Shown here piece by piece: positions 12,686-38,060 of a stretch of 64,000 nt of DNA (its first letter is position 1; every line of letters starts with the position of its first letter). The notes under the pieces were generated by a model. It was not told where the DNA came from, ran no database searches, and saw nothing but the letters and a program-made list of their open reading frames with translations. Made by a program: the position numbers and the translations under genes. This DNA comes from Neopestalotiopsis rosae (Eukaryota > Ascomycota > Sordariomycetes > Amphisphaeriales > Sporocadaceae): contig JALGAS010000004.1 in NCBI GenBank assembly GCA_023078685.1, positions 558,001 through 622,000 of the forward strand. Reading direction: 5' to 3'.

Positions 12686-12749
12686 GTCTAGGTATAAACA
12701 CACATAATATTGAAACAACAGCCACCGCAAGGATATAATGTCTCTGTAC

Positions 12750-15237: not shown

Positions 15238-17242
15238 TTAACCCGATTTTACCTCATTGAGCGGCGATAGCTTTTCAACTCTTGTTCCCTGCATATTATT
15301 CTCAATATCCTGCTGACGTTGACTCTCATCCACCACTCCAAATAAAACGTCCATCTGCTCCAACGATAGATCCTATATTGAATGTTAGACCAGATACCTA
15401 CTACAGACTGAGAGGAAAACGAGGCAACCGACCTTGGTTTCAGGGAGTAGCCAGGCAAATATTGCTGCAACAGCATTCAAGGTACCAAAGACCTATCAAA
15501 TGTCAGCTGGTGTGCGTCACTCTAAATTCGACCACAATCACTTCATAGAATCATACCATCCAAGTTTTCCAGCCGATATTCAGGATTGAAATCGGAGTGA
15601 TCTTTGAAACCACAAAATTCCAGAGCCAGATGTTCGCTGCGCCGATACCCATGCCATAGTCGCGGATGCGTGTTGGGAAGATTTCGCCAATGTATATCCA
15701 TTGTAGAGGTCCCCACGATACGGAATATGCCACGACGAAGAGATAAATCAAAGCCATCATGCCTTGTGCAGAAGCGGAACCGGCACCGTTGCCTGGCTCG
15801 GATGGAGGATGGGTCTTGAGCACCGCTCCGAGCCCAAACAGGAACACGCCCATGAAAAAGGCGCCGAAAACCATGAGAGTTTTCCTCTTGAATATGTGCA
15901 CACCGCCAACGATGAATACGACTGTGCTGGCGAATTTAATACATGTGAACACTCCTGATGCCATGAGGGCAGCATTCTGTCCCGTATAACTGGAAAAAGG
16001 TTAGTTTATGGTCCGGACTCACAGCTTCCATTCCTAGGGCGAAAGTCTTGCTGTAGTTACTGAGAGGAATAAAGCATTTCAGGAATTCTTACCCAATCTG
16101 CGCAAAGACAGTCGGCCCATAGTATAGTATGGCGTTATGTCCGCACCACCTATACTTTAATTAGCTGTCTGAACGAATTCAATGGGTTATTTGCAGACTT
16201 GCATGGCGAATAAACCAACACCGAGCGCCCACATCAGTCTGGCCAGGTTCTTCGACTCGAAAAGCTCTCGTATGGTGCGACCTTGCGTTTGGGCCATCTC
16301 TTCGTGTATTTGAGCGCGAATCTCTGCCATTTCACCAATTATCTCGGGACATTCAGCACTCGCACTCCTCAGATAACAGAGGCTCCTTGTCGCTTCATCG
16401 TATCTGTCTTGCTTTGCCAACCAGCGAGGGGATTCGGGGATGAAGAAGGTCATGATAATGACTAGCGCTGCGAGTATGATTTGAAGCGACAATGGAGTTC
16501 GCCATTGCACTGCACTCGGCTCGAGATGGACTGAGCAGCCGTAGGTCGTCCAATAAGCCAGCATGCCCCCACTAACGAGGAACATTTCGAAAAGCGACAT
16601 CTGTTTGCAACGAATTCGTGTAAGTACCCGGTTTCATCGCCCGATGAAGCAGACAAACAAAAATAAACGAACCATGATACCACGAAGATGTTTCGGGGCA
16701 GCTTCTGCAACGAAAACGGGAGCGACATTCGAAATCATCCCAACCCCAAGCCCGGCGACGATTCTTCCAGCATAGATCAGGGCCAAAGTCGGACCTGAAG
16801 CGGCCACTTGGAGTATACCCCCCACGAGAAAGAAGGCCCCCGCAATAGCCAGAAGTTTCTTACGACCAAGGTATGTGTTCAGCATTGGCGGTATAAAAGT
16901 TCCAAAGAAGGCGCCAGCGTTGAGAAGGGCAATGATATTAGACGATGCCTCTGCGTACACAGCCGTCGATGATGCCAGATTGAACTCGGTTTTGAAGCTT
17001 TTCAGCGCCACGACACCTCCAGCGACACCCGTGTCGAACCCAAAGAGGCACGAACCGACATTGCTGCGAGAAAAGAAATTAGCATACGTTATTCGCCGCA
17101 ATATGAGCCCTAAGATCCAGATACAGTATGGACCTGTAATTGACTCTGCCGTGACCATGCGATGACCATTGAACACTTACACAGCTGCTGAGACGGCAAT
17201 CGCCGCTCGATTTTTCCAGAGGCTCTCGATTATCGTCATCAT
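15238..17242 (-). CDS. MFS sugar/quinate-type porter, first gene of the catabolic block
   Basis: Exons are 17242-17181, 17063-16673, 16600-16199, 16154-16093, 15989-15557, 15492-15433 and 15372-15238 (514 aa). This is a sugar-porter-family transporter with 12 expected membrane helices. Signatures are LFGFDTGVAGG in helix 1, the loop YLGRKKLL, AGRIVAGLGVGMISNVAPVFVAEAAPKHLRG after helix 4, PESPRWLAKQDR at the central loop, GEIFPTRIRDYGMGIG after helix 10 and PETKDLSLEQMD after helix 12. The intron between exons 2 and 3 seems to use a GTTCGT donor, and the exon 4 acceptor (ATTAAAG at 16155) was chosen because the nearby TATAG acceptor gives a stop. The family includes quinate and aromatic-acid permeases as well as sugar carriers. 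Its position beside the ACMSD-like gene suggests uptake of the pathway substrate, which is inference. Confidence 0.85.
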
Positions 17243-19096
17243 GGCAATCAATTACTGCAGAAATGTGACTCTAGCACTTTCAGCTGGAGGCACTGAACAA
17301 GTTTAGAGATAATGGAGCAGGATTGGACAGGGTGGGAAATTCATAATATCCTCCAAATCAGCACGTAGCCATAATCACTTGCATTTTCCCACGAGTCTCG
17401 GTCTATGCATATGCAGCTAAGTGCTGTGTTGATAGCGTCTGTATTTTGCGATCGATAACATTGGTTCGACGTCGGCAAATTCAACCCGACGGGCAAATTA
17501 AGTGATACGGGCGCAAGGTGGCTATGGAATGATTCAGGTCAGGCCAATGATAGGAGTCAGTATAGCGAAAGGAGCAGCCCAACTCCCGTCTGTATGCTTT
17601 CTTCACAACATAAGCTGCCTAGGAGGCTTATGTTGACTAGGTCTGACCTGTAGGTAGTTTTAGATGCGCGAGTAGATAAGGCGCTTGGCTAGGGGCATAT
17701 GTTTCCTGGGGCTCGGGAACGGGCCGAGATAATCTTTCCAGCTGAGTGGAACACCATGATAAAACAAACAAAGTCCAAGGAGGAAACATATATCTGCATC
17801 TGCGCCTAGTTGATTGGTGGATACCAGCCGGATAACACTATCTAGATCAATATCCCCGCAAATGCCTTGTCGTCCTCGTTGCTTCATATCGCTTCTTGCT
17901 GATATGAAAGACTAATTGTGAGAGTATCTCCTTAACCTGTCAAAGCTCCACTATCTTGTACAGCTTTGCACACTTCTCTGGCGGCAGACGGCCACTTAGG
18001 TCCAGCATTGAGAAGCGAAGCGTCTGTAGCACGCTAATATGATCTTGTACAACTGGTTTGGCCGATGTTTACTACGTATACTTGTGTTGCGCTGACTCAT
18101 TCCCTATACGCCAACCACAAGCTATAGTTGATTTGCGGAGGGCGCAGATATAACTGGGACCCCGTCTATCGAAATGCTTGAGACCATGGTAGCATTGACA
18201 GCCTCACATGTGCTACAAGCATCAGTGGTGGAAATTTGGCTACATGTTGTGAGTCGAACGGCGAACGGATGGTCGGCAGTGCTGGAATCCAGACTTGCAG
18301 TAGATAGGACCACAAGTTTGTCAGCCATCTAGCAATCCATCAATCCAAGGTACAACTTTGTTTCGAGGCAAAAAGGTCCTTGTCCGTTCCTCGCGCAAGC
18401 ATATAAGCCAGCGCTGAAGAAGACATGGCGATGGAACACATTAGGATAGCAAGCTTGGAAGCAGGACGTTCTTCGCAACCACCACTAAAAGGAGTGCCCC
18501 GCATTAGGGATGTCACTGGACTCGGCATCCAATTCTGCCCCCGAAGCTCCTGCAAACGGCAAACTGGACCGCAATAAATATCTCTTTCAACGGGCCTGTC
18601 TCCCAAACCAGGCAATGCACACATCAAGCATCGTTCTCTTTTGCAACAAGATTCACCGATGATCCTCAAACTCTGTGTGAACCGCGCATTGTCGGACCTA
18701 GCAATGATTGGGCGCGCACCAGTTTTCGGATGTTCTGGCGGATGTGAGCCGGAGCGGAAGACGGATAGGGAACGGACACTGTGCTCATTGGTCGGCAGTC
18801 ACCTGGGAAGGTTTGAAGACCCGAAGCTAGCAACGTCAGCGTACATTCTAGGTCCATCGTATATGGCATTCGAGAGAGGCATATGTCTTTTTGGCTTGGG
18901 TTTGCAAGTGGTTCTTTGCTTCAAGTTCATAATTCCTCATTTGTGTGATTTGACCACAGTTTCAGATTCAACCAAAGCTCCGGGTAACTGGAATACAACC
19001 TATTCAATTTCATCAATACGTTTGCCTACCTAGTCAATAATACCATTGATCCTTTTTTTCCAGACTTCAGGATATCGTTCCTAGTGGATTTTCAAG
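17243..19096. other. Divergent promoter region with a near-perfect inverted repeat
   Basis: This 1.85 kb separates the divergently read MFS porter and ACMSD-like gene. I see no gene I can support: frames at 18122-18328 and 18340-18669 are short and motif-free. The notable element is the 30-bp inverted repeat at 17606-17635. Confidence 0.5.
17606..17635. repeat. 30-bp inverted repeat upstream of the MFS porter
   Basis: Arms CAACATAAGC and GCTTATGTTG are exact complements. The 10-bp centre is TGCCTAGGAG, itself containing CCTAGG. Over the whole 30 bp only two symmetric base pairs fail to match. It could be a binding site for a dimeric regulator or a hairpin; the sequence alone does not decide. 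Confidence 0.6.
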
Positions 19097-20445
19097 ATGG
19101 CGCCTTCACGTATCGCAGATTCTAGCAGCGAGCCCAGTGATCATAGTGACCATGGCGATCACAGCGACTTGAGTGATGACTGCAGCTGCACTGCCGGCCT
19201 CTCACACAGGCCCGTCCGCAATGTTCCCGTTACAGACGGCTCATCTCTTTACCGCATCGACACACATACGCACATCATGCCATCCGAACTCCCAGATCTT
19301 TCTTCGTTTCCCACCAACTCGAAATCTAGCCCGTGGTTGGACTTGAGGCCATCGAAAACAGGAGATACCGACCAGATCGACATGTATGTTGGGGACGTCT
19401 TTTTCCGGACAGTCGAGCCCAATTGTATCCATGCAGAGACGAGGATAGCAGAAATGGATGCTGCCGGGGTTGACGTTCAGATCATCAGTACTGTGCCCAT
19501 TCTGTTCTTCTACGACGAGCCAGCAGAACCAGTCACAATTCTTGCCCGGGCGCTCAACGATCACATTGCGGGGGTCTGCTCGCAGTACCCAGACCGCTTT
19601 GTAGGACTCGCGACAGTTCCTCTCCAAGACGTGAGCGCGTCAGTGGAGGAGCTCAAACGAGCAAAATCTCTAGGTCTGAACGGAGTCGAGATCGGCACGA
19701 CGATTGGGGAGACCAATCTTGATGATCCTGTCCTTGACCCGTTCTGGGCGGCCTGCGAGGAACTGAACATGCCCGTTTTCGTGCATCCCCTAGGATACTC
19801 CTTGTCGAAAGAGAACAGCAAGAGATGGGCAAAGTACTGGGGTTCTTGGCTGGTGGGCATGCCATCCGAGACAGCGCTGTCCATCTTGGCTCTCACCTCC
19901 TCCGGCACCTTGTTGCGGCATCCCCGATTGAAACTCTGCTTTGCACATGCTGGTGGCGCTTTCCCAGCGCTTTTGGGCAGAATCCAGCATGGTTATGACT
20001 GCCGACCAGATCTCCTTGCCGGCGATGCTGGCGGTGTTAGCCCTTCGGATCACATGTCAAGGGGCGGTTTCTGGGTGGACTCTCTGGTGCATGATCCAGA
20101 TCTTCTCGAGTTTCTATGCAAGAAGATTGGCCCGGAACGGATTGTCATGGGAAGTGACTACCCATTCCCATTAGGAGGTAAGTCACGACTTTCGAGATGT
20201 AGAGATGAACATGGACTGACAGTATCATAGAAGTACCGGTCGCAGGAAAAATGCTCTGCACGGAGGAGAAACTGGACAGCTTTCTGACGTGGAACCAAAG
20301 AGCAAATATGTTGGCGGGAAACGCAATCAAGCTGTTCAACTTGGGACCAAGTTTTCAAAAGTCTTTCCAGCAAAGACTGACTGTTTTTGCCAAGAAGTCA
20401 AATCCAGCGGGACACGTTAAAACGGAGTCATTGATACCAAACTAA
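19097..20445 (+). CDS. ACMSD-type decarboxylase (2-amino-3-carboxymuconate semialdehyde)
   Basis: Exons are 19097-20177 and 20231-20445 (431 aa). An amidohydrolase-superfamily metal-dependent decarboxylase. After a Ser/Asp/His-rich N-terminal extension of about 45 residues come the metal motif DTHTH (His57, His59), [52 protein letters not shown] and GSDYPFPLG. This chain of motifs matches true ACMSD, as in the animal kynurenine pathway, more closely than the related 2,3-dihydroxybenzoate or resorcylate decarboxylases, as far as I can judge by eye. The known reaction removes CO2 from ACMS to give 2-aminomuconate 6-semialdehyde, which is the substrate of the ALDH encoded at 30447. The 53-nt intron junction PLG/EVPVAG keeps the family reading. 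It lies 53 bases from the 3' end of the regulator gene, tail to tail. Confidence 0.87.
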
Positions 20446-20498
20446 AAACAAATGATAATAATATGTATTTTTACTATCGACATTTGCTTTTTGCTTTT

Positions 20499-23275
20499 TT
20501 AAAAGAATGAATTCTGCCCGTGATCTGGAGATGGAAACGCCATACCGGACGAGCTGAAACCCATGTCTGATGGGAAGTCAAGCTGATATGGCATCTCCAT
20601 ACTCGAGTCCATTGCGCCAAGGAAGTTGTTTATTGTGTTGTCGAAAAAGCAAGACTCTTCAGATACCGTCTGTGGAATGTTGGTTTGTTGCGAAACCGGC
20701 AAATGCATGTTTTGAGATCCAATGCACTCTGTGCGGTCCTCGGAAGGTGCCGACGAGCTATACATCTCTGCTTGTTGTGAAGAGCCATGGAAAAATGGTT
20801 TCTTCGGTGCGCTACCATTGGCCGAACTGCTTGCCTGTCGCTTTTCCGGGATTGATTTCCTTGTATCGTGAGAGGGACAGCCAAAGTCATGTTCGTCGAA
20901 ATGGCATTTGCGATCGCCCCGAAGCACCTGAAATGTAAATTCGAGGTATTCTTCAACGGTGCCTCGACACTTCTTGGCGCCTTTCCATGACGACTCGAGA
21001 TTCTGCAACACCTGCATCGCCTCTTCCACATCGCGAAGTGCTTGGTAGACAAACTTGGGATCGTCGCTCCAACGTGCGCAGGAGAGAAGGATCAGGGCAG
21101 AAACGAAAACGTATTGACCATGAAAAACCATGAAATGCGTCTTTGCCACGGACTCGAAGCATTCGGTCGCACCCCTGATGCAGTCCGTCGCGGCTTTGGC
21201 ACTTTTCAATTGGGCCCAAGAGCCTGCCAACGGGCTAGGTCGATGGGGATTGCGGATAAAGGCACGGTGTAATAACATGACGGCAGAGAAGAAGGACGAC
21301 AAGGCCACATGCTTGAGAGCCAGGGATTTTCCAGAGTTGGCCGTCTTGATGTGAGCGGGAACCATGTCCCTCGCCCATATATGCAGTGCTTCGTTGGCGT
21401 CCCGTACACGTGTCCGCAGTTCATCTCTCTTTCCGTTGACGGCTGCATTGGACCACGAGTTTGCATTTCTGACTGAATTCACCACCTTGAGGATGTCTCC
21501 AATAATCCGGTATAGATGAATCATGCTTATGAAGCCGGCTTCATCCATATTCCCCGAATCACCACAGCGTGGCATATCGGCGTCGCAGTCCTCATCATTG
21601 ATGGAGAGGGGCCGACCCAAGGCTATGAAAGATCGTTAGAAGGTGAAATCTGTGGTAGATGTGGTGGGTGACTCACCAGTACAAAGCTGCCTTTCCAGGA
21701 TATATAGGCACCACCAAGTATTGGTACGTCTATCCCATTCATCTCGAGGCAGTCGTAGCTTCTCGGATGAGCGGTGGAGGCCAATGTCCTGAGCTATCCG
21801 GATTGCTCGACCTATAGAAATCCACGCTTCCGCTTGCGAACCAGTCTCTGTCAAATACACACTCAAGAGCCCCAGTGCTGTGACCATGTCTAATCTTCTT
21901 CCTTGACGTTGCGCCTGTTTGCTCGACGGCGTATTCACAAAATGCATGGCACGGTTGTAAAACAAGGGACCTGCTGACGCCCAGTGCCTGCCGACAGTGT
22001 TGAAAATAACGTCTTCGGATGACACTAGCGGTATCGAAACAGCAAGCAGTGCATAAAAGACCGCAGCGTGGCCAGGATCCCAGGTGTCTAAACTGCTCAG
22101 CTTTTGGTGGATGTGCCGAATTTCGTGCTCAGTTGTGATAGGGAAGAGGTGTTCAAGATTCTTGGCGTATGTACAGACCAGGACATTAACCAAATCCGTT
22201 GGAGGCAGTTCGAGTGTTGCGGCTGACGGTTTTGACAACCCACCGGTCGTGTCATCAATATGTGTCGCTTCGAGGCTAGTAAAGAAGCTCTCCTCGGTTT
22301 CATAGCCTTTTCGTTCCAAACCTTTGGTGATATATCTCCGCAGCCCGATGCAATTCTCTACGGCAACACTCACGGTAGATCCGAGGCCGATATAACGCAG
22401 TTGACCGTGACTGTCCGCATCCAACTCACCAAAACCATCCGCATAACGGCGCCCACTCCCGTCGTGCCCACTGGGAGAGATTCGAGTCTCGGAATGAGCG
22501 TTGTCTCTGGCGGATGCTCCTTGATTGCTAATATCAGGATCATGAATCTCGTTATCGGATCCTGGAGGTTTGAGGACTCCTGCATCCTGATTCGTTTGGT
22601 TCGAATGCCGCCGATCTCCTCTATCGATGGTTGAAGAGGCCGGGGCGCCAGAGGGATTGTGAGAACGACATTCTTCCTCAGCCAGCGCAGTCTGATCCGA
22701 GTCGCAGCCGAGGTGTTCGAGGCTTGTGGCTTCTCGCTGGCCAAGATCGGTATCTTTGCGCATCGATACGGGTCCTAGCTTGTCCTCGATCCTTTGAAGC
22801 TGATCAAAATATCCTCCAAACATTTGCTCCATCTGTGCGATGCGTAATTCCAGTCTTTCCATCCTACTATCAACCATTTTCTTTTTCAGTTTGATATTCC
22901 AGGTTCAACTCATAACCCCAAGGACACTGCTTACCTCATGTCTGTAATATTTATATTCTTAACGGCTGTTCCGGTGAACTCGACGTATTCGCAATTTGTT
23001 TTATAGGTAATGCAACGGCCACAAGTCTCTGCACCATCACACTTTACTTTCTTGGTCCGGCACTCGATACAAGCTCGCCGCACTCTCTGTCGCATATTGG
23101 CAGAAGGTGCATTTCTTTGCTGTAGCGGAGAATCCGACGTCCGTGGAAGTAGAGGAACGTAGTGCACGGAAGCTTCATCTTGCTGACATGTGCTGGAAGT
23201 GCCAGACGATCGCGGGTGGTCTGACTGGTCGTCTAGTGATGCAATGACGCCGCTGCGAGCCACGGGTGCTGCCAT
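20499..23275 (-). CDS. Zn2Cys6 transcription factor, likely cluster regulator
   Basis: Exons are 23275-22935, 22863-21677 and 21622-20499 (883 aa). A binuclear zinc cluster (C69-X2-C72-X6-C79-X5-C85-X2-C88-X6-C95) is followed by a short coiled-coil-like segment (MERLELRIAQMEQMFGGYFDQLQRIEDKL), a Ser/Asp-rich linker and the fungal_trans domain (about residues 290-640, including WWCLYILERQLCTALGRPLSI across the second junction). The C-terminal 200 residues are Ser/Pro/Gln-rich and could be an activation region. Intron 1 has tandem acceptors three bases apart (ends at 22867 or 22864), so isoforms differing by one residue are possible. Lying in the middle of the catabolic block, it is the natural pathway-specific regulator. 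That is inference from position. Confidence 0.9.
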
Positions 23276-23801
23276 TGTTCGAGCTACGGTCTACCTAGCC
23301 TGAGAACGAAGATGGACCTGTTGCGCAATGCAATGCAAGGTTTGAAAACAATGGAGCGCGCGTATCTGAATGGGTTCAAAAGTGATCACTGTCAAAGCAA
23401 TCGCACTCTTGAATGCTACAATGAATTGACTTATCTTGATCGACTGCTCTTGACAGTCTGCCAAAGCCTGTGCAGTGTAGCTTGCCGCAATGCTGGGGAG
23501 ATACAGGTAGCAATGCCCCCCAACTAATCGGATGGCCCGATCCGACAGCGGGGTATTGCGCTGAAGTCAAATGCCACCAAAGCATCAGCGTAGATAAGGA
23601 TATCACAAGGAATAATGTCACCTATCGCTTAGAAACCTATCTGGCTCATCGCTTTGTCTGTTGAGTCTGCCATTGATTAAATATGGTACAGATCACGTTT
23701 TGTTTATTGAAGCCGTCTATGCGGCCGATTGAATAACAGATACAACACGATGCAGAAAATGAGGAATTGTTCAGAACTGTCATATCCATATCTTGATCTC
23801 T
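23276..23801. other. Promoter of the regulator and 3' end of the bicupin gene
   Basis: About 0.5 kb, no supported gene. It is upstream of the Zn2Cys6 gene and downstream of the convergently ordered bicupin gene, both read leftwards. Confidence 0.5.
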
Positions 23802-24996
23802 TCAAGTTCGTGATCTCCAGAACCCAAGCGCGACTTGCATTGGCTTGTCCGAGAAGCTGAACAAGTAAACATCTTCATCTTCGGCAAACACCTGAAAGCG
23901 ATGCCACGAAGGAATGCAGAAGCTGTCGCTCTTGGTCCACCGCAGTGTATACTTTTTGTCGTATGGATCAAAGACCTCGGTGTAGCCCCGACCAGCATGT
24001 ACCTGGAAGATGTAGCTCGCCGTCTCCTGAACCGGGAGGGTTGCCTGACCGGCAGCCACACGAGTTGCATACGCGCCAATGGTCGTTGACACCGACTTGC
24101 CACTTGGCAATAGATATTCCATGCTCGAAAAAGTGCCTCCGGCAGCGTCCAGTTTCTTTTGCATATTCGTCCACGGAAATTTCATGTCTGCCGCCTCAGC
24201 ATCTGGAACTACCTTGGATTCGTGAGTGGTTGCACCATATTCTTCGTCTTTGTTTCTGTTAGCCTCTTTGCTGCACGTGTCTACTCATGATGCTTACCGT
24301 AATGCTCGGTAAAGTCTACCGGAATGTGCTTGAAGAGAGGAATGTTCAAGCCGTCGAGCCAGATGACGTTGGTCTGGCCCTCGTTGCCATGGTCATGCCA
24401 GTTCCATACTGGCGTTATGATCAAGTCACCAGGCTTCATGAACATTTTCTTTCCCGATATGGCGGTGTAACCTGAACCATGTCAGTATGGGCCTTGGAGA
24501 TGGTTTCGTGGCGTTGATCCCTTACCAGAGTCACCGTCAATGAGGAATCGCACTGCAAAAGGCGTGTGCCTGTGACATATTGCCTGCTCGCCGGGGATGA
24601 TGAGTTGATGAGCCGCTAACAAGGTATCCAAAGTGAATGGAGGCTGCTTTGGACCCGGGTTGATCATCAAGACAGCCCTTCTCTCTGCCTCTTTGGCATC
24701 TACAAGGTCTGCTGCTCTGAGTAGAAGACTCTTGGTCTCTTCATACTTCCACACGGCAGGGATGTGCTTGCTATGCGGAATGGGAGCGCTGGGAGGTGCA
24801 CCTTGGAAGATATGAGTATCATGTAATTGAATTCATCTGCATGTCACATACCGGTGTTCCACAGGGGAACCAACTCATGGTCGCGGATCGTCGTCTCAAG
24901 TCCTTCCTTGGAGTTCACGTTGGACTTGAGTTGACCATAGAAGCCTCCCTTCTCCGAGATGGAGTCTTCTGGGATTTGTGCGATAGAGGGGGCCAT
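23802..24996 (-). CDS. Gentisate 1,2-dioxygenase-type bicupin ring-cleavage enzyme
   Basis: Exons are 24996-24852, 24801-24526, 24471-24298 and 24241 (or 24247)-23802 (344 or 346 aa; two in-frame acceptors six bases apart). The order of motifs follows gentisate/salicylate/hydroxynaphthoate dioxygenases: VPLWNTG near the N-terminus, EAERRAVLMINPGP, the first cupin with PGEQAICHRHTPFAVRF (His125, His127), then GDLIITPVWNWHDHGN (His166) and WLDGLNIP. A second, more degenerate cupin (FQVHAGRGYTEVF...DSFCIPSWHRFQVF) follows. Family members are Fe(II) enzymes that open an aromatic ring next to the carboxyl group. They are different from the much smaller 3-hydroxyanthranilate 3,4-dioxygenase that would be expected upstream of ACMSD. 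The substrate is therefore the main open question; a hydroxylated anthranilate is my guess from context. Confidence 0.88.
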
Positions 24997-25718
24997 GTTG
25001 CTGAAAAAAGTGACTACTACGTATCACTCTGGTGTCTCCAAATTTTCTGTCCTCGGCCTCGATATATAAAGTTTTAACCTTGGCACACAATCCGCTTTGG
25101 TAAACGTGTGCTGACTTCTGACACGGAATCTATCAACTCCGTCTGCGAGATGCATCAATATGAAGAAGTCGATGACAACGAGAGCGCTTGAAACCCCGAC
25201 ATGGCGGCAATGGCCAAATCTGAATTGGCTGTTTGCTCGGAATGCCGGTCTACAAGAGATCGCTTGACTATAATTGGCTGCTGGATCCGGCCCGGCACCC
25301 GCCTATCAAGAGTCAATCTGGATCGGATGTGCTTTGCCGAGTCTGACCAGTAGAATATTGTCTGCAAGTGATGGCAAATGAAGCATGCGGTATCTAGAGA
25401 TCTTGATAGGTTTGTCCAATACTTCTCGGCCGGCTCCAATATCTGGTTCGTCTTGGGTCGGACGCTGTCCAAGCGACGAATCTACGAGCCCTACTACTGT
25501 AGGTGGAGAAGTCGTGTTATACTGCAAGACCGTGGCTTATGATACGCTGACCAGCGCTTAACACCCAAGCTAGCTGTCGATCAGCCTAGAATTGTAACAA
25601 CCGAATTCGATCGGGATTGTATTTGGAGCAAGGCATATGGCACAATTTTGGGAATGAGAATGCTTGCTCTGAAAAAAGAGCAATGTGGAATGAGGCTACA
25701 CTGAAATATGCAAATAGT
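24997..25718. other. Intergenic between bicupin and FAD hydroxylase genes
   Basis: Promoter of the bicupin gene (read leftwards) and the 3' end of the hydroxylase. GC-rich patches with CGGCCG and CCGGCCCGG occur near 25285 and 25427 and could be Zn2Cys6 sites. No gene. Confidence 0.4.
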
Positions 25719-27166
25719 CTAGTTGAAAGCAGAAGCTGGCGCCGTACGTGCGCCAACAACTGGTGAATCCATGGTGAGCTGATCCCATTCATGGGCGACC
25801 AGAGCCGCAGCACGACTCTTCAGTACCGCCTCGTGAGTTCTCGGTCTCATCTCCGCTTCGTAGGCATCAACAGCCACCTTTTGATCAATTGTTCCCTTGT
25901 GTATCTTTTTCAACTCATCCACCAACAGAGCTGCGTCCAAGATTCCATGATTGGCACCCTCGCCCCTGTACATGGTCATTGCATGAGCTGCATCACCAGC
26001 CAGCGTGATTCGGCCGTTGCGGTTATCCCAATCCTGACACGGGAAGTCGCCCAAGCGCAGAGGCGTGGTGTAGTCCAGGTCATCGGGGATATCCATGACA
26101 ATGCTACGAAGCGGTTCGGCAAAGTCTTTGGCTCGCTCCTTCATCATGGCAATGCGCTCGGGATTTGTTCGAGGAATCGCATCGGCGACTGCATCCTTCA
26201 TAATCCAGGAAATGATGACCAGGCAGTCAAAAGACAGCTGGCCGTCGGGTTCCGTGAAGCATTCCTGTAGACTGTGTGAGATTCGTCTGCCCAAGATGTC
26301 CGATTTTTCTTCATACCTGAACGGAATACCAAAGGTAATTTTGCGTCTTTGGGTGCAGAGCCTGGAATAGTAGTGGGTCAAGAGCTCGCACGGGGGCAGC
26401 TTGCTCTGGCGTGAAATGTCGCACAACGCCGACGAGATGCACAGGCAGCTTGGTGAGCTCGTGATGCTCTGGCATTAAGTGTCTGCGAACATTGCTGTTG
26501 TTCCCGTCTGCCCCGACAAGAATCGTTCCGTCTGCAAATGTGCCATCCTCAAAGTGCGCGCGCACGCCGCCCTCGATCTCTTCTACTCTCACGAGATATT
26601 TCCCGTCTTGAATGTTCAAGCCATCAGTGAGCACATCACGAAACTTTTGACGGTGCAGGCGAAGTCTTCTCTTTGATGGCGGAATTCTGAACCGCGTCTC
26701 GCTGGAAGCTATATCAGCAACAATACGTGCAAATAACATGGGGAAATGAACTTACCAGGTTTCGGCATTGAGAAACAAAAAGTTACCTTGATCCTTTCTA
26801 AGAGTCGAATCTACAACCGCCTTGAGATTCGTCAGCTACAGATGATTTGACAGGCAAGATTTTCAAGGTTTACCTTGGGCAGTTTTGCGGCTCTTTCTGG
26901 GCCGATGGTGCGCTCAAGAGCGTCTAGCACCCAGTGCAGTGTCAGAGCCCATCCATGCCGGCGGCTCTCTGAGTAACTATCAGCATCAGTCTTCCTGGAC
27001 GTGCAAGGTTTCACTGCCGCCACGCACCGTCAGTGTCGCGCTCGAACACCGTGTACGGGATGCCATTCTCGCGGCATCCTTGAGCGATGGTTAGCCCTAC
27101 AATGCCTCCACCGGCAATCAATACATGCATGGGTCGTTCAGTCTCGGGCGAAATGTAAGAACCCAT
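25719..27166 (-). CDS. FAD-dependent aromatic hydroxylase (salicylate hydroxylase-like)
   Basis: Exons are 27166-27028, 26968-26874, 26820-26756, 26701-26317 and 26264-25719 (409 aa). A group A flavoprotein monooxygenase. It has the N-terminal FAD dinucleotide motif VLIAGGGIVGL (residues 15-25), the middle DG motif ILVGADGNNSNVRR, and the GD motif ITLAGDAAHAMTMYRGEGANHGI. The start at MGSYIS was preferred over an upstream ATG because the FAD motif then sits about 15 residues in, as usual. The fourth intron (52 nt) resolves an apparent frame change near 26316: it joins YSVQ to ECFTEPDGQLSF. Family members hydroxylate aromatic acids with NAD(P)H and O2. Here it could make the hydroxylated substrate for the bicupin, for example from anthranilate. 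Kynurenine 3-monooxygenase is a more distant relative and less likely. Confidence 0.88.
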
Positions 27167-28016
27167 TTTTGAACCACTGCTTGTCTTGCGGTCTGGTGAA
27201 TATTGGTATGGAATGTGTAAATGTGATAATAGGTGATAAGCGACCTGATAAATATTCGCAGCAATAGGCCTCACAGACACAAATGCTCGTCGAGAAGCAA
27301 ACCGAGGATCCAGACAAAGATATGCAAGCAGTCAGCTGATTGACCGTCGTTCTATGCGCAGAGTCAACGCAGCTGATGCGACCATAAGATAGCCCTTGTA
27401 ATTCGCCCGGGTCCCCGGACCGGCTAGCGGGGGCATCGACCTGGAGGGACAAAATCCCAGATATGAGATTGCTCAGGTATGTACGAGTTCGGTTTACTGT
27501 AAAGTATTCTTTTCTTATCATTCTATTCGATGAAATTGACGTTCTATTGTTTTTTTCAGGTCATGAAAAATAGCACACGATTTGCGGAAAAGGAGACACA
27601 AATTTTGTTGTGTAGAACCAGCGGGCTTGAACATCATTGATTTAGATGCTAGAAATACTCTATTCTGGCAAAATAAAAACTCCATATGCTAATTGGAATT
27701 TTTGTGTCCCGCAAAGATGGCCAATCCCCGAATCAATTGAGATGAAGTTTTGAAGCTCAGAGATTAGAACCTTTCGTCGTGGCCAAGTTGCGCCGTGGAA
27801 GACCTCACTGCCCAGGAATTGCGCATGCAAAATGGCGTATAGAGAGGCCTGCTGGAAGAATGCGTCGCCTGATTAGGGCCCTGCGGTTTGCTGATGATTG
27901 AATGTGCTAACAGCCCCCGCGACATGCTAATCCCAGTACGCCGACGGGGCCCTGCTGCGACGACTATTTGCTGCAAGTGGACGATTTCTGTACCGCAATT
28001 GATGACCCGATCCATC
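27167..28016. other. Promoter region of the FAD hydroxylase
   Basis: About 0.85 kb with no supported gene. Part of it is AT-rich (27530-27700). A GC-rich island at 27405-27440 contains CCGGACCGG followed by CTAGCGGGGG, a plausible Zn2Cys6 target about 250 bp upstream of the ATG. Confidence 0.5.
27416..27422. promoter_or_regulatory. Candidate Zn2Cys6 site CGGACCG
   Basis: Inverted CGG half-sites with a one-base gap (CGG-A-CCG), embedded in the symmetric CCGGACCGG, 250 bp upstream of the FAD hydroxylase ATG. The same arrangement on the other strand (CGGTCCG) is at 30136-30142 in the divergent promoter of the hydrolase and ALDH genes. Binding by the cluster regulator is inference. Confidence 0.3.
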
Positions 28017-28490
28017 TCAAGAAGCTTCACGATAGAGAGCTGTACACTTGATCTCCACGTTCAGCCTGACGTTGGGCAGAGCTGCTACTTGAACACATGT
28101 TCTAGCCGGTGCCTTGGTCTTCTCTGGCCAGACCTTGTTCCACTCCTCATTCATACCGGCGTAGTCCTTCATGTCAGTGAGAAAGACTGTCGCGTCGACC
28201 ACGCTCTCGAGACCTGCGGCGCCGTTGGTGGCTCCTTGAATGATGGACCCAATGTTTTCGAGGACGGCCTTTGTCTGCTCGCGAACGTCGAGCGTGTGGT
28301 TGCCGTCGGCGTCTGTAGTGCACCCCGCGTACGTCCCGTCACCCCGCCGCGACGATGTGCCCGAGACGTACAACGTCTTTTGTGTGCCCGGGGCAATGCG
28401 CGCATGTGGGTAGTTGGCGAGTCCTTGAGCTCTTCCTGCTGGCAAGAAGAACGACTCGCCGTTTGGTGAGGTAGCTGACATGGTGGGCAA
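28017..28490 (-). CDS. RidA-family protein, 2-aminomuconate deaminase type
   Basis: A single-exon gene of 157 aa (or 154 from the second ATG). The RidA/YjgF fold is recognisable from VSGTSSRRGDGTYAG, REQTKAVLENIGSIIQ, LESVVDATVFLTDM, PARTCVQVAALP and LNVEIKCTA. The SGTSSRR stretch and overall layout resemble bacterial 2-aminomuconate deaminases (AmnD type) rather than general RidA enamine deaminases. The arginine in PAR-T, used by RidA proteins to hold the substrate carboxylate, is present. In the proposed pathway it would convert 2-aminomuconate to the oxo acid with release of ammonia. It lies between the hydroxylase and hydrolase genes, all read leftwards. Confidence 0.85.
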   Translation of the reverse strand: MPTMSATSPNGESFFLPAGRAQGLANYPHARIAPGTQKTLYVSGTSSRRGDGTYAGCTTDADGNHTLDVREQTKAVLENIGSIIQGATNGAAGLESVVDATVFLTDMKDYAGMNEEWNKVWPEKTKAPARTCVQVAALPNVRLNVEIKCTALYREAS

Positions 28491-28923
28491 GTAGTAGAAA
28501 GACAGTCTAACTTGGCGGTGGTGTGATAGATCGATGGAGGGTTTTGGAAGACTGCAATGTTTATCTCAGTCGTAAATCACATGAGAGCTTCAAAATTTCG
28601 AAGAACACAGAATGCAATGAGCGATGCAAGTGATTTCGTAATTGCATCGTCGTTCCGTTCCGATGATTAGTTTCGGATCTTGGTCTTGTCTTTCCGGCCA
28701 TGGGCGGATGTGCAGGCGCCGCTGCAAACCTTGTGACCCCGCGCCTGTACAGTACAGTACTCAATGATGCCGGCTATCCTGGCATTTGATCACCGACTCA
28801 ACCCGCCGTCTATCGGCCTTGGGAGGGAAAACTGAGTACACCATTTATATATTTCTTAACATCTCTGCGGAATAATTCAACATTGACCGGAGTCGGTAAA
28901 ATCTGGCTTGTACAAACGACCTA
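28491..28923. other. Promoter of the RidA-type gene
   Basis: About 0.4 kb with no gene. It contains repeated CCGTTCCG/CGG elements around 28652-28680 that could serve as regulator sites. Confidence 0.4.
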
Positions 28924-29956
28924 TTATTGACCCAAAAAGGCCAAGATACGTTTTCCAACTGCGTCACCTGGGAGGCCGATGGCTAGAATATTCGATATGT
29001 GATTATGACCTGCCATGACCTCAAACAATGGCATCCTGCTGTATTTTTTTCTGTATGCATCGACGAATCTCAGGTTTCCGTCCACGATCTCATTGGAATC
29101 GAACTCGGCAACCATGAGCAAGAGGCGTGGTTCTTCAGTAATGGCGCTGTTCTGGAACACGGATGCACCGGCTTTTCCCAGTATGTCCTCTTCCTGTTCC
29201 GACTCGTGATAAAGCACCATATTCTCTCGTCTTCTTGCTTGCTTCAAGTCATACCATAGTGGTGGACTCAGAAGCACCAACCCATCAAGCTTGACGCCAG
29301 CTTCGGCCAGGAATCCCGCCCAGGTAGCCGACGCTAAATGGGCGCCGCCAGCGGACTGACCCACGGCGATCATTTTTGCCGCATTGCCTCCATACTCGGC
29401 TGCGTGGTCTTGAACCCAGCGCAGTGCTTGAGCAGTGTCTCTGCCGCCAGACGGATATCGTGCTTCAGGCAGGAGGCGGTACGTTGCAAGAATGCAAACA
29501 CATTTATTGTTTGCAAAGTAGTTGCCTTATTAAATCGCATGAGCACTACTCAACCCATTCGAGTTGCTCTGGAAGATGCACTCACCAATGTGGCCATGCA
29601 TGGACGGCGTTATATCATTGTCACCAGATGTGAATCCGCCTGCCCAACAACTCTTAGTATGAAGCCCTTCAATTGTCAATGTGGATGTCATGGCAAAGCA
29701 TACCTCCATGGAAGAAGACAACGACCGGCAATTGCTCATTCTGATCCAATGAGGCTGGGTGGTAGATATCTACCCTATGCCTTGCGTGATCACCATATTT
29801 GATGCCCTTTTGCACTTTGACCGTCTGCGTAAAGTTTTTGGCTTGTCCAGCGTGAAGGGGCTCGTACAACTCGTTCATTTCTGAATTTGTCTTGAGAGTC
29901 CATACGTTGCCATGTCTGGCTATTGCTTCTTGAATCTTTTCCATCGTTTCAAACAC
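28924..29956 (-). CDS. Alpha/beta hydrolase, kynurenine-formamidase/BD-FAE-like
   Basis: Exons are 29956-29704, 29639-29586 and 29525-28924 (302 aa; 298 if the second ATG is used). The HGGG oxyanion motif is completed across the first intron (FFHGG/GFTSGD). The nucleophile elbow is GQSAGG (Ser160), the acid is probably in MVAEFDSNE, and the His in AGHNHIS. The short form with HGGG plus GxSAGG is typical of the esterase family that contains kynurenine formamidase and bacterial BD-FAE-type hydrolases. In this cluster it could remove a formyl or acyl group from an anthranilate or kynurenine derivative, or open a lactam/enamine intermediate; neither is proven. It shares a 490-bp divergent promoter with the ALDH gene, which suggests co-regulation. 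Confidence 0.82.
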
Positions 29957-30446
29957 TTGTTAGTTACTGAGGAGATTGGGTTCTGCATTCACAACAATTG
30001 CTTGACAAGATGTGTTCACTTTCATCGCTCGCATCCAGGGCCGCTTTCGGGCATTGCGCTCGGGATATCACGAAGGTTTGGCGGGGTAGCAGGACACGCT
30101 ATAGGAACTGATAGAGCTGGGGGTCGCTTCAGTTACGGTCCGTCCTATCAGAGCCAATCATGACCGCTTCCGCTTCCGACATTCACCTTCTAGGTTGCCA
30201 GGGATGTGTGTGGCCCTGGAGCGTACCGCCGCACAGTGCCGGCTCTAGGCGAATCCAGCACAGAGGGTACACTAGAAGCAGCCAGTCCAAGTGGGGTTAT
30301 TGATTGCTGTTGTGAATCTACAGAGTACGGATCTGTACAGTCGCTGGCCTCGAGCATCTCTCAAAACACGTGCAGTACCTCTGCAAGTCTCCCTTTGCCA
30401 GCACAACGAAAGATTCGTACCATAAGGAAGGCTGTCATCTGAAATC
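29957..30446. promoter_or_regulatory. Divergent promoter, hydrolase and ALDH genes
   Basis: The two start codons face away from each other across 490 bp. Inside are CGGTCCG at 30136-30142 and GCCAAT at 30153-30158. The CGG-N1-CCG form is shared with the FAD hydroxylase promoter (27416-27422). No gene fits inside. Confidence 0.55.
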
Positions 30447-32079
30447 ATGGGATCAATAGCGACAGAAGTCAGATGTAAGGCCATCTGCGAAGCTTGGAAC
30501 TGCAACTCGTTGGAAAAGGCAGAAGGCTTCTTGTCCAGTCAAGCTTCCAGAGCAGCGCCGCTAGAGCTGGAGAACTTTGTCTCCAACCAATTCAGCCCTT
30601 CAACACAACACCTGGATGCCGTCAACCCCAAAACCGGCAAGGTCTTTGCCAGAGTGCCCGTCAGCAGTGCAGAACAAGTGGATGGGGCTGTCAAAAGTGC
30701 CACTGAAGCGTTCAAGACATGGAGCAAGACGACCGTGGCAGTGAGGTCAAAGCATCTGCAAAGGATTGCGCAGCTTATACAGGAAAACCATGAGCTGTTT
30801 GCAGTGTGGGAGAGCCTCGATCAAGGCAAGACTCTAGCCCGTGCAAGAGTGGAAGTCGACCGCGCCATATCAAATTTCAAGTAAGACTTTTTTCTTGTTT
30901 CACAGGTGTTGGTAGACTAATTGTGTGCTCCGTTAGCTACTTTTCCACATTTATCCTGCATCAAGAGACTGCTGCGAGGATGATTGATGGAGTTGCCTTG
31001 ACCTACGAGCATCGTTCTCCCGCAGGTGTCTTTGCCCTCATCTCGCCCTGGAACATGCCACTGTACTTGCTGACGTGGAAAATCGCACCGTGTCTTGCTT
31101 TCGGGTGCACCGCCGTGGCAAAACCTTCCGAAGTCACATCCATGTCGGCTTTTCTGCTGTGCGAGGTGTTTCGCCAAGCCGGGTTGCCGTCCGGCGTCAT
31201 CAATGTTGTTTTCGGAGATGGTCCCACTACGGGATCGGCTTTGGTGAAATCTCCCTTGGTGAAGGGGGTGAGCTTCACGGGCGGCACCGCCACCGGCATA
31301 CAGATCAGAAAGGATACTGCCGACCAGATATACAAGCACCTATCACTTGAACTTGGTGGCAAAAACCCGACACTGGTTTTTGACGACGTGGATTTGACGA
31401 AAGCAGTCGAGACAGCAGCCATGGCAGCCTTTGAGAATCAAGGAGAGGTATGTGCAGAACAGATTGCCAGGAGCTGTGACATCAATCTAACTCATTCCAG
31501 ATCTGCCTCTGTGGCTCACGCATCTACGTACAATCAAGCATCTATGATCGCTTTGTCTCGTCTTTTACTTCCTACGTAAAGGACAATTACAAGAGAGGAG
31601 GGAGAATGGGAGCGGTGGTCTCGCTACCCCATTATCGCAAGATCCGATCCTATCTCGAGCTCGCTGCCTCAGAGAAGGCCAAGTTCGTCATTGGAGAAAT
31701 CCCAGTCGCCGATCCTACAGATGGTCTCTGGATCGATCCCGTCATCCTCACTGGCGTTTCCACGTCCTCGAGGGTGATGAGGGAGGAAATCTTTGGACCC
31801 GTGGTCACAATCGCCAAGTTTGAAACAGAAGAAGAAGCAATTGAACTTGCCAATGACAACCCAAATGGACTGGCAGCTGTATTACTGACAAAGGATGGTG
31901 CCAGGATGCGGAGAGTAGGCGAGCAGATCGAGGCAGGCTTGGTCTGGGTCAATTGCTGGCTCGTTCGAGAACTAGGCACTCCTTTTGGTGGTATGAAGAA
32001 CTCTGGTACGGGAAGAGAAGGTGGCGAGTATAGCAGAGATGTCTTTACTGTTGTCAGGACCTTGCATATTCCCATGTAA
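30447..32079 (+). CDS. 2-Aminomuconic semialdehyde dehydrogenase-type ALDH
   Basis: Exons are 30447-30880, 30937-31447 and 31501-32079 (507 aa). An NAD(P)-dependent aldehyde dehydrogenase with ISPWNMPLYLLTWKIAP, AKPSEVTSMSAFLLCE, the general base motif SLELGGKNP (Glu283), the nucleophile motif NQGEICLCGSR (Cys317), EEIFGPVV and GLVWVNCWLVRELGTPFGGMKNSGTGREG near the end. These segments match the ALDH8A1/2-aminomuconic semialdehyde dehydrogenase branch, notably NCWLVREL. The expected reaction oxidises the semialdehyde left by ACMSD to 2-aminomuconate. After KDNYK the usual stretch of roughly eight residues before MGAVVS appears to be replaced by GGR. The active-site residues are intact, so the enzyme should still work. 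Confidence 0.9.
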
Positions 32080-32253
32080 ATTTCCGCGATCAATAAACTG
32101 TGGGTAATTTATTAATGAGAATTCACGGCAATGGAAATCATGACCAAGATATTGGAGGAACAAATATCAGGTTAATGTCCAGCCGGAGATCCTATGTGCA
32201 AATCCAAGGAACTACCACAAAAGATAACTAACACGCAAGATCTATGCTACAAA

Positions 32254-33739
32254 TTAATAGTCGTTGAGTCCCAATTGAATGCCAAAATACTTTTTGCATT
32301 CAACCAGACTCGCCTTTTGCAGTTTCTCATATGTTTGTATCTCGTCCAGGATTGGCATGCCCAAAGACTCCTGTAGTTTGTCCCGGCTAGCGCCACTCGC
32401 TTCCTCTAGACAAGAGTTGTCCTGAGTGGATGTCTTGAGATTGCTGCGAAATATACCGGCAGCGCTGAGTGGCAAGAAATCTTCATATGTCATGGGCTCG
32501 TAGCATATCAATCCTTTCTGGATGAGGTCGTCCACTGTCATGTTTGACTGGCCACCTTTCAGACTGGCGTTGTCTGGCGACACGTAGTACTTGAACCACG
32601 CGAGACCGTACCGCCGCAGTTCCTCCCAGGTATCAGGAAATGCGCGAAACAGGTCCGCGTATGCTTCGGGATCTTGTGGTGTCACACCGTTCTTCCAAGC
32701 TTCCTTGACGAGATGATCGTACAGCGCTCGGCCCTTTTGCGTCAGAGCGACCCCGCGCTGCTCAATCTCGCCGAAACGGGCTGTATGGCTGCCGAGAACC
32801 ATGTCATTCTTTGATCCCGCTTGCTCGAGATTAATAGGGAAAAAGACACCCTCTTTCAAAGCTTTGAAGCTGGTCTGTCGCAAAAGAATGGGGCAGTTTC
32901 TGGCCGGTGGTCCTTCAATTATTTCTTTCAGAGGTATGCCTTGCTTTTCCATCTGTCGTTGGACCTCGTCGATATCTAGTGTCCGGGGAGTCAAATGGTT
33001 GATGTGAGGGCCGGGAAACGCCACAATGTCTGCCAGCAACGGATTCTCTTGCTGCAGCTCTTGATATTCAGAGAGGGACACGGTGGCTGAGCCTCGCCAT
33101 TTGAACGTCTGGATTCCTTCGGCAATAAACTGATCAGCTTGCTCGGCAGTCAGACCGCCCATCTTTTCGGCCAGAGACACGAGCTGAAGACATTGATCGG
33201 AGAATATCTGACGTCGGGATAGGATCTCGAGGGCCTTTGAACGTAGTTGTACAGAGATACATTCTGGACGCAAAACAGAAACAAAAAGTCTGAAGGGGTT
33301 GATCGACAAGGACTCGAGGTCGGTGCATCGAAAACATGTCGCATGAATCGGCAAGCATGCTGGCGGCTGTGCGAGATCGTAGTAGCCCACTGGTTGCATG
33401 CCCATGACGGCCAGAAACCGTGCCATTAACCTCATCTCCTCGGCAGTGCCGAGGCGGATTGCGCCATGCCTCTCATAGTGCAGTCTTTCGAGTTGTTTTG
33501 TTTCCCGCATGGTCTCGCGAAGAGTGGGACGGGAATCAAGAAAGGTTTTGTTGACATCTGATACAAGCCCGAGGAGATCGGAATACAAGGGCACCTCGTT
33601 TCTATAGACTTGAGACTAATGGTGTGATCAGTTTATCTCATCGTGATACAAGAGTCAGTTGATTGCTTACCATTTCAATCGAAAACTTGTGCCGAATAGC
33701 TGTCGGCGACAGTTTCTCGCTGCTCGAATTCACGTCCAT
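32254..33739 (-). CDS. DUF1338/HglS family, 2-oxoadipate dioxygenase/decarboxylase
   Basis: Exons are 33739-33671 and 33615-32254 (476 aa). Family hallmarks are the N-terminal FSIEMSQVYRNEVPLY segment (across the intron), HGAIRLGTAEEM, CFRCTDLES, PHINHLTPRTLDID, IEGPPARNCPILLRQTSFKAL and GSHTARFGEIEQRGVALTQKGR. Characterised members (HglS/YdcJ and plant homologues) are VOC-like Fe(II) enzymes that convert 2-oxoadipate and O2 to D-2-hydroxyglutarate and CO2 in lysine breakdown. In this cluster it would take the six-carbon oxo diacid formed after deamination of 2-aminomuconate, provided the double bonds have been reduced. No reductase for that step is visible in the window. The intron between EM and SQVY has good signals, and the ATG at 33739 has A at -3. 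Confidence 0.87.
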
Positions 33740-35719
33740 TGCTTAGGTTTAGTTTCGGAAATGGTTTACAGGATTTGAGATGATGCGCAGCAGCGTTGTA
33801 CAGAGTATACACAGGCCAAACACATGAATGATATTGCAAATGATGCCAGAATCATCAATTTGACGGGCTTACAGTTGAGATGTTGGGATCTGGCAACCTA
33901 GATTTGAGTGATGGACTCCCGAGCTTTCCCGGCTTATAATGGCCCATCACAAAACACGAGGCGAGAAGCCGCCAATAGCATCATATGGTCAGAAGGCATG
34001 CTCAAAGCGGATAGTTGATCTGTAAGTTTAGGCGAGAAGCGGTGCGGATACCGGATACAGGCTTCTTATTGATTGGCGGATAGCGGGCGGCCCGCTAACA
34101 GACACCTAATTGTTTGTCGCTACAGGCCACTGGACTGCCACTTGCGGAAGCTCAGTCAGTGCACCTGTCACATGTGTCTCTGAAGCTACACCTTGACACC
34201 ACTCAAACAGAGATAATGCCAACATTAGAGATAGTGCCGGGTTTTGTCGGCTTTGTACGGTTGATTGATTGATTTCTGGGCAGGGAAACAAACAACAAGG
34301 TGGACAGGTAACGTGAATCCTATCTTGAAGGAAGCAGTCCGTCGTTATTGTTAATGGATTCATCTTCCCTGAGGCCAAGCTAGTCTTCATTAGCTGGTGA
34401 CTGAAATCGATGTCATTGTATAGGACGAACTACATTTGGGCATTTTGAGATTGCGTCGGGGACATGAAATGGGTAGCAAGGGAGCTGCGATGTGCAGGTT
34501 CGACTGAAGATATTATCCACGACATATATGAATAATCTGAGATGTGACTCTTCTTTTTATCAATGTCATGTCAACGAGAAGTCGGGCAGACATTGTTGAG
34601 CACATCTCCCTCCAGGAGGACCGCATCATCAATCACAAGCTGATGCCCACATGTCATGGTTCCGATAAGCTGGTCTGCATTGTGCTAAGGTTAGTGGCGT
34701 AGCGAATCGGCTGCAGCTGCTGATAAGATCAGCGCGCATACAATACAGGCATGGTCGATAGTATTCATGAGCATGGAATTGTTTCATTCGCGAACGATGA
34801 ACGCATTTTGATGTCGCGAATCGGGCTCAACCGACATCCAGGACGACTAGTAAATGAGGGACAGATGGAGTCCTCTTGAGTTCGGTTTGTCGTTTCTCGT
34901 AGGTGAAAGCAACTCCTGGATCTGAAAAGTTAGTGGACAGGTTGCACTGATGTAGCGTATTGTCATGTTGTACTTAAGCGCTCTAGGCGATGCAGGGGGT
35001 TCTAAGAATACACTAGGCTACTGCGCTGAGCCGGAACTTTTGGCCTTATCAGATTGGGCAGTGCTTCGTACTACCCCAGACTATGTGATATATATATACA
35101 TAGGTAGGTAGCCAAGAGCGCCGACAAACAAATCACAATGCCATGAGGGCCCTTGTCCTGGATTGATGACGGAGGTACAGGAATTCGTGATCTGTCAGTG
35201 CAGAACATCGACCATTCATGACTCTCCCTTGTTGCTCCAGAGTCTAATATGCCAAGTGTCTGAAATGGAAGAGAAAGGATGATCTGCCACTCACCGTGGC
35301 TCAATAGGGGATGCATCAACAATAGCAATGTGGGCCAAATGTCAAAGAAGGAACGTGCAACAAATCAGTTCGCAAATTTTCATGATCTGACAAGATTTTG
35401 TGTTTGATGTGATTGGGTGTATTGGCCAATTGGATTTGCTCAGCGTCTGTCGAGGATCATAACATCATATCATGCAAGTGATATCCGAGGCTTTCGTGCG
35501 GCTCAGCAAAATCCCACATCAACATGAGTTATGCCTCGAAAATACCTTGTTCAGTTGCGAGTAGTGCCTTATGAATCCGATCATCCGAAGTGCGCGTCAT
35601 TAGCTCTCTCTCTCTTTTACCCGTAACCGTTATTTGTCCCTTTGCTTCTCGGTCAAAAACGTTGTGTAAACTCTTTACTTGCTCAAGACAGTGGGCGACG
35701 CCCACCGAGTCGTTCTGGG
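33740..35719. other. Gene-free 2 kb, right border of the catabolic block
   Basis: No gene supported. The first 400 bp are the promoter of the DUF1338 gene, with CGGATACCG at 34045-34053 and a perfect 17-bp inverted repeat at 34081-34097. The rest is AT-richer with an ATATAT/TAGG run near 35090. Confidence 0.5.
34081..34097. promoter_or_regulatory. Perfect inverted repeat TAGCGGGC-G-GCCCGCTA
   Basis: Two exact 8-base arms around one central base, about 340 bp upstream of the DUF1338 ATG. CGG half-sites in mirrored arrangement fit a dimeric Zn2Cys6 protein. A CTAGCGGGGG sequence at 27424-27433 in the hydroxylase promoter resembles one arm. The function is inferred. Confidence 0.45.
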
Positions 35720-37354: not shown

Positions 37355-38060
37355 CTGTTGAAAGTGGCGATTTGACAGAAATGACATATCGTCCTACACC
37401 TGCGCAGAACCCGTTGCGCTGTTTCTCAGCGACAGGACGGTGCCTGATGCAAACATGGCAATCTGAATACTTGTACTACGTCTACCTTGATTGATTTGTG
37501 GCGCTGTACTCCGTACAGTGAGTACAAGTTCCCCACGATCGTTATCTACATACCCTGGGTATACAACTGCCACCCAACAGCCGGGGGTGTTTAGCGCCAA
37601 GCCCGGAGCGTATGCGGCACTCGGTGAACCAGCACAAGGTCCCTCACAGTGAAGGCCTCACTGTACAGATTGCCATTGTCTAGGCGAGCTTAGGAGGCAA
37701 GGAACGAAATACCCACTTGTGAGAATGATTTGGTAACCTCACAAACTGCCGGAGGTAGAATTGACAGGGTAAAGCGACCAATTTAGTATGATTCACCCTT
37801 TTCAGCTTTCAGGGGACCCTTGTGCCTCCGGGGGCAAGTCTTCATCCGTAAAACAGGTGAAGAAAGTCTAAAGTATGGGACCGCGTAGAAATGTATCCAA
37901 GGCCTAGACGCAATCAATGCTACGCATCCCAAGCCTATTTTGAAGCTCCCACCTATATATGGCAAGTTGCAAATAGACTTTCTAGTATCGAGCAATAGAA
38001 TCTCAATTACCGTTGAGTGTGTTTTTCAGTCTAGGATATTGGCACTTGTATCAACAAAAG
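37355..38060. other. Intergenic, left border of the polyketide locus
   Basis: About 0.7 kb, no supported gene. It contains the promoter of the hydrolase at 38061. Confidence 0.5.

Follow-up and report, generated by a model that had tools for sequence, protein, structure and literature searches.

A nine-gene cluster in Neopestalotiopsis rosae that joins ACMSD-type core enzymes to a gentisate/salicylate-class bicupin and HglS

Gene content of the locus

The window analyzed here, a 64,000-nt stretch of Neopestalotiopsis rosae DNA, holds nine genes between positions 15238 and 33739, bounded by the stop codon of an MFS transporter gene, which ends at 15238, and the start of an HglS gene at 33739. 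In order, they encode an MFS transporter of the sugar/quinate type (15238..17242, minus strand), an ACMSD-type decarboxylase (19097..20445, plus; 431 aa, two exons), a Zn2Cys6 regulator (20502..23275, minus), a bicupin ring-opening dioxygenase of the gentisate/salicylate class (23802..24996, minus; 346 aa, four exons), an FAD aromatic hydroxylase family protein (FMO; 25719..27166, minus; 414 aa, five exons), an intronless RidA-family protein (28017..28481, minus; 154 aa), an HSL-type alpha/beta hydrolase (28924..29944, minus; 298 aa, three exons), an AMSDH-type aldehyde dehydrogenase (30447..32079, plus; 507 aa, three exons) and HglS, a DUF1338 protein of the 2-oxoadipate dioxygenase/decarboxylase family (32254..33739, minus; 476 aa, two exons). 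The corresponding Pfam families are Sugar_tr (PF00083, 115.9 bits, main exon), Amidohydro_2, Zn_clus and Fungal_trans (PF00172, 39.9 bits, and PF04082, 53.6 bits, in separate open frames), Cupin_2, FAD_binding_3 (PF01494, 70 bits), Ribonuc_L-PSP, Abhydrolase_3 (PF07859, 82.1 bits), Aldedh and HGLS. Full gene models were built for seven of the nine (all but the transporter and the regulator), with introns of 38–64 nt where present; the transporter model is partial, with introns of 117 and 72 nt and a start and stop placed by hand.

For the same seven proteins, the genome (53.8 Mb, 17 contigs) has no close copy besides the one in the cluster. The next-best match to the decarboxylase scores 82 bits (33%), and the best other matches reach 38% for RidA, 42% for the bicupin (an ordinary gentisate dioxygenase), 43% for the aldehyde dehydrogenase, and 50% and 44% for HglS. 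For the FMO and the hydrolase they reach 34% and 30%, short fragments having higher identity but low scores. The original observation of nine genes at these coordinates is thus upheld.

To the left of the cluster, positions 10901–13583 carry carboxylesterase and GH5 cellulase-family open frames. To the right, an open frame with no Pfam match (35849–36751) is followed by a polyketide synthase region (37986–45601) with acyltransferase, dehydratase, methyltransferase, ketoreductase and carrier domains and an Abhydrolase_3 gene alongside, and farther on by a GH71 glycosyl hydrolase (53280–55592) and a piece of a cytochrome P450 (59742–60380).

The best solved relative of the FMO is an uncharacterised monooxygenase (4hb9, 102 bits), and that of the hydrolase is an esterase (4zrs, 133 bits). 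The hydrolase had been taken for a formamidase-like enzyme, a label that its matches do not support: the rows shown are general HSL/Abhydrolase_3 matches to alpha/beta hydrolases of the hormone-sensitive-lipase type. Plasmid searches with the FMO and the hydrolase returned no match that names a substrate.

A motif scan found CGG-N-CCG palindromes, weak candidates for regulator sites, at 17720, 25288, 27416, 30136 and 34088 (17720..34094), in five of seven cluster promoters. Only one of 300 shuffles was equally good, with 63 patterns tried; the genome count (8853 in 53.8 Mb) corresponds to about 0.9 expected in the 5.5 kb of cluster promoters. Being striking against the rest of the window and the shuffles, weak against the genome, and one of 63 patterns, the sites were rejected as proof of co-regulation. 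Shared promoter words of 7–8 letters did no better than shuffles, and a 10-letter word found in three promoters was equalled by 8 of 100 shuffles.

The core enzymes and their linkage in other genomes

The decarboxylase scores 261 bits against human ACMSD (2wm1), versus 98 bits for the first different family. By hand count on the alignment, its R104, H230, W251, H284, R295 and D354 correspond to human R47, H174, W191, H224, R235 and D291, and all six are invariant in 11 of 11 rows (the window protein, first exon, and ten fungal relatives). The available text of PMC11650718 names the residues that contact zinc and both carboxylates; these, the zinc ligands and Arg51, Arg239, His228 and Trp194 (P. 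fluorescens numbers), are all present. The protein shares 96% identity with P. fici PFICI_02126 and about 60–70% with the Aspergillus and Fusarium proteins among the matches listed. The family named in the original prediction is the right one. Every active-site residue checked is retained, and bicupin-linked ACMSDs fall in more than one supported group (see the tree below), so the enzyme probably acts on the usual ACMSD substrate.

The aldehyde dehydrogenase, originally described as ALDH8A1-type, falls in the AMSDH family: each of its seven best PDB matches is a 2-aminomuconate (or -muconic) 6-semialdehyde dehydrogenase, and R139, R471 and C317 (positions by hand count) match Arg120, Arg464 and C302. 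The two arginines are strictly conserved in the AMSDH/HMSDH family and absent from other aldehyde dehydrogenases, according to the available text of PMC4286809. The RidA protein has 2-aminomuconate deaminase (6izh, 68.2 bits) as its best solved relative, the next scoring 48.8, which agrees with the AmnD type predicted for it; it is likely a 2-aminomuconate deaminase. Judged by family and residues, the predicted core steps, which lead from ACMS to 2-aminomuconate and then deaminate it, are well founded.

Bacterial loci support this middle part of the route. The best 80 of 230 ACMSD loci in GTDB genomes were searched with seven window proteins and the fungus's own 3HAO exon (tblastn, E 1e-6). 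A 3HAO was found at at least 44 of the 80 loci, an aldehyde dehydrogenase at at least 34 (30 of these scoring roughly 300 bits or higher) and a RidA protein at at least 25, these counts being lower bounds because many of the loci are short. The FMO was matched at one locus (53 bits). Among these 80, many of them short, none had the bicupin, HglS or the hydrolase. The bacterial loci thus resemble the cluster where they pair ACMSD with an aldehyde dehydrogenase or RidA, and differ from it in that many have 3HAO and none of the 80 has the bicupin or HglS.

Might the substrates be hydroxy rather than amino compounds? The same enzymes could act on 2,3-dihydroxybenzoate, giving 2-hydroxymuconate semialdehyde, with the RidA protein merely clearing reactive enamines. 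2-Hydroxymuconate semialdehyde is a further substrate of the P. fluorescens AMSDH (PMC4286809, available text), and the best NCBIfam model for the window enzyme is 2-hydroxymuconic semialdehyde dehydrogenase, at 444.9 bits, below the 693 cut-off. However, the closest solved relative of the RidA protein is 2-aminomuconate deaminase, RidA recurs at the bacterial ACMSD loci, and it recurs also in the fungal clusters described in the available text of PMC7842363. We regard the hydroxy analogue as distinctly unlikely.

Linkage in other fungi was followed by protein searches with the bicupin, ACMSD and HglS, with 120 matches listed per search, a shared contig being called where the records give an identical number of bases. 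Among the matches listed, the bicupin and ACMSD share a contig in at least four fungi: Acephala macrosclerotiorum (186,455 bases, ids 715846 and 715845), Xylariales sp. PMI_506 (867,148 bases), Sporothrix thermara (194,650 bases, together with HglS; ACMSD and HglS assigned by equal size alone) and, as a weak case given the length of the contig, Capronia coronata (4,430,949 bases). The bicupin and HglS do so in at least three of the fungi listed, including Coleophoma cylindrospora (BP6252_03869 and BP6252_03868) and the owner of a 1,906,144-base contig, and ACMSD and HglS likewise in at least three, including Pleurostoma richardsiae (452,132 bases) and P. fici. In P. fici, the tags PFICI_02119 (HglS) to PFICI_02126 (ACMSD) span exactly the eight genes expected from the order in the window; no P. 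fici bicupin was among the matches listed. Overall, the bicupin shares a contig with ACMSD or HglS in at least 5 of 13 named species. Thozetella is a counter-example in which different contigs carry the two genes for bicupin and ACMSD; the other seven species have no linkage call among the matches listed. The linkage foreseen for related species thus recurs, pairwise and in sparse sampling, in several Pezizomycotina.

A tree of the window ACMSD and 30 of the 120 matches listed spreads the bicupin-linked ACMSDs over more than one supported group, several forks being weak. PMI_506 and S. thermara fall within the window's ten-row group (99/97), Capronia pairs with F. oxysporum (96/93), Acephala is unplaced, and the Aspergillus rows form a group of their own.

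Unrelated genes might also lie side by side by chance, and the FMO, hydrolase and aldehyde dehydrogenase families do have many members in this genome. Three of the genes, however, share contigs in other fungi, and the P. fici tag interval fits the order in the window, which makes a chance neighborhood highly improbable.

The ring-opening bicupin

How is the ring opened? The bicupin retains the three-histidine iron site and the Arg/Gln/His/Asp substrate contacts of the salicylate and gentisate 1,2-dioxygenases (class III ring-cleaving bicupins) in 20 of 20 rows, and it shares their fold. In contrast, Trp/Tyr104, Gly106 and Ile/Leu107 of those enzymes are replaced by Leu, Ala and His in 20 of 20 rows of its clade and in 0 of 12 picked others. 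The Tyr/Trp104 that contacts the 5-hydroxyl in gentisate dioxygenase is thus absent along with Gly106, their places being taken by Leu110 and Ala112. The bicupin belongs to a distinct subclade of the gentisate/salicylate class in which residues aligned with the substrate pocket are changed. The TIGR02272 model was dropped as a divider from the gentisate dioxygenases: the bicupin scores 226.6 bits against a cut-off of 442.1, and ordinary fungal relatives (P0048, P0051, P0074 and P0077) fall below it too, at 222–268 bits.

The ring-opening dioxygenase of the original prediction stands as to its class, but it is not a 3HAO. That identity was ruled out since there is no PF06052 match and the site has three histidines, the Glu position of the 2-His-1-Glu site of 3HAO being missing. 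(A fold search with the bicupin listed no 3HAO among its matches, which is uninformative on this point.) A search of the genome turned up a single PF06052 gene, outside the cluster at 426 kb on contig C11.

Herein lies the main conflict. The unchanged-looking ACMSD asks for ACMS, yet a 3-His bicupin of this class should break the bond joining the carbon with the carboxyl group to the carbon with the hydroxyl group, and on chemical reasoning such C1–C2 cleavage of 3-hydroxyanthranilate is not expected to yield the substrate of ACMSD. The class of the bicupin is read from the sequence; its substrate, and that it supplies ACMS, are things we infer.

One way out of the conflict is to suppose two joined modules. 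The housekeeping 3HAO on C11 would make ACMS for ACMSD, AMSDH, RidA and HglS. A different, salicylate-type ring would be opened by the hydroxylase, hydrolase and bicupin, its products merging later. The retained iron histidines and Arg/Gln/His/Asp contacts fit this arrangement, as do the presence of one 3HAO gene elsewhere in the genome and the separate contigs in Thozetella. However, the pairwise contig sharing of the bicupin, ACMSD and HglS in several fungi suggests a single pathway, and no FAH-type hydrolase for a gentisate-like product is found among the nine genes, whereas a gentisate-like locus on contig C16 has one (by ORF reading). We consider two modules rather unlikely.

That locus lies at C16:1762790-1777005 and comprises an FMO, the FAH-type hydrolase and an ordinary gentisate dioxygenase, about 8 kb from a second HglS gene, which is itself grouped with regulator, dienelactone-hydrolase-like and quinone-oxidoreductase-like genes (names partly from ORF reading). 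It was considered as a copy of the same system and rejected, being a gentisate-like locus beside a separate regulator/dienelactone hydrolase/oxidoreductase/HglS group.

HglS and the proposed route

The DUF1338 protein scores 576.7 bits on NF049974, above the HglS equivalog cut-off of 550, and its H73, R77, H230, E306 and S407 correspond to H70, R74, H226, E294 and S403 of the reference HglS, the key residues being those given in the available text of PMC7286885. The HHE metal triad and the specificity Arg are kept in 26 of 26 rows and the Ser in 25, the exception being a piece of one of the fungus's own paralogs that ends before it. The original assignment of DUF1338 to the family that converts 2-oxoadipate to 2-hydroxyglutarate is accordingly supported. 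The triad and the specificity Arg are shared with the HglS of Pseudomonas putida D-lysine catabolism and of plant lysine catabolism (PMC7286885, available text); the window enzyme differs in sitting in an ACMSD cluster and in having Leu for Val402, as does its C16 paralog.

A tree was built from the window HglS, 23 of the 120 matches listed and both of the fungus's own paralogs. Every HglS in it that shares a contig with a bicupin or an ACMSD falls with the cluster HglS in one 12-row clade (100/98), which also holds further rows, such as F. avenaceum. Both own paralogs and a RidA-adjacent HglS of Aspergillus parasiticus lie outside it. In A. parasiticus, RidA and HglS adjoin and are annotated as one 642-aa protein (P0273, BDV34DRAFT_231841); a true fusion was rejected, and the case is counted as adjacency only, since the junction reads as a merger of two neighboring gene models. 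Linkage, this adjacency and the specificity Arg support a role for HglS as the sink of a C6 2-oxo acid.

We favor, with moderate confidence, the view that these co-localised genes serve the breakdown of an aminohydroxybenzoate; the simplest candidate is 3-hydroxyanthranilate derived from an anthranilate. Going by family alone, the transporter would import a precursor, the hydrolase might release it from an ester or amide, the FAD enzyme might hydroxylate it, and the Zn2Cys6 protein might control the gene set. The bicupin would open the ring in place of the 3HAO of published clusters, ACMSD would decarboxylate the product, AMSDH would oxidise 2-aminomuconate semialdehyde to 2-aminomuconate, and the RidA protein would deaminate the latter. 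HglS would then consume the C6 2-oxo acid to give 2-hydroxyglutarate, provided that an unlinked reductase first makes 2-oxoadipate. Derivation of the starting compound from an aromatic amino acid is plausible.

The pathway to 2-hydroxyglutarate as originally joined holds for its ACMSD, AMSDH, RidA and HglS families, which fit, but no reductase for 2-oxo-3-hexenedioate to 2-oxoadipate was found among the cluster genes, so the path has a gap. This gap, the cleavage expected of a 3-His bicupin, the separation in Thozetella, the seven bicupin species with no linkage call and the lack of a P. fici bicupin among the matches listed, the position of the RidA-adjacent A. parasiticus HglS outside the 12-row clade, and the 0 of 80 bacterial loci with HglS or the bicupin all count against the proposed route.

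The gap would vanish if HglS acted directly on the unsaturated acid. In this more radical proposal, the bicupin would found a new kind of aminohydroxybenzoate ring opener that displaces 3HAO, and HglS would take 2-oxo-3-hexenedioate, the deaminase product, itself: decarboxylation would give bound glutaconate, and hydroxylation at C2 the enol of 2-oxoglutarate. We hold the combination to be unlikely; if true, tryptophan-type aromatics would join the TCA cycle in one step, without a reductase, CoA or a 2-hydroxyglutarate dehydrogenase.

How much of this is new? The original prediction knew of no described fungal cluster with this set, which holds only in part. A '3-hydroxyanthranilate catabolic cluster' that combines 3HAO with ACMSD, AMSDH and, as a recurrent member, a putative 2-aminomuconate deaminase of the RidA type is described for Ascomycota, including A. 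terreus, in the available text of PMC7842363 (2021), where the A. terreus cluster is also noted to have an FAD monooxygenase nearby. That cluster resembles the present one in uniting ACMSD, AMSDH and RidA, and differs in that its ring opener is a 3HAO, which the present cluster lacks. With that core already in print, only the bicupin and HglS, along with the hydrolase, transporter and regulator, are new to the set. The papers listed in the literature searches, mostly without subscription papers, showed neither HglS nor a gentisate-class bicupin as a member of a cluster of this kind. The locus is a genuine cluster whose linkage recurs in other fungi; the core is known, and the entrance (the bicupin) and the exit (HglS) are new.

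The bicupin subclade, with its clear sequence marks, offers a new target for work on ring-opening dioxygenases. In their available text, PMC7842363 leaves open the steps after 2-aminomuconate and 2-oxo-3-hexenedioate in fungi (a term search of its main text found neither DUF1338 nor hydroxyglutarate), and PMC7286885 defers the question of what HglS does in fungi to later work. Two published gaps, the fate of fungal 2-aminomuconate and the role of fungal HglS, meet at this locus, and since HglS recurs on both ACMSD and bicupin contigs, each may answer the other.
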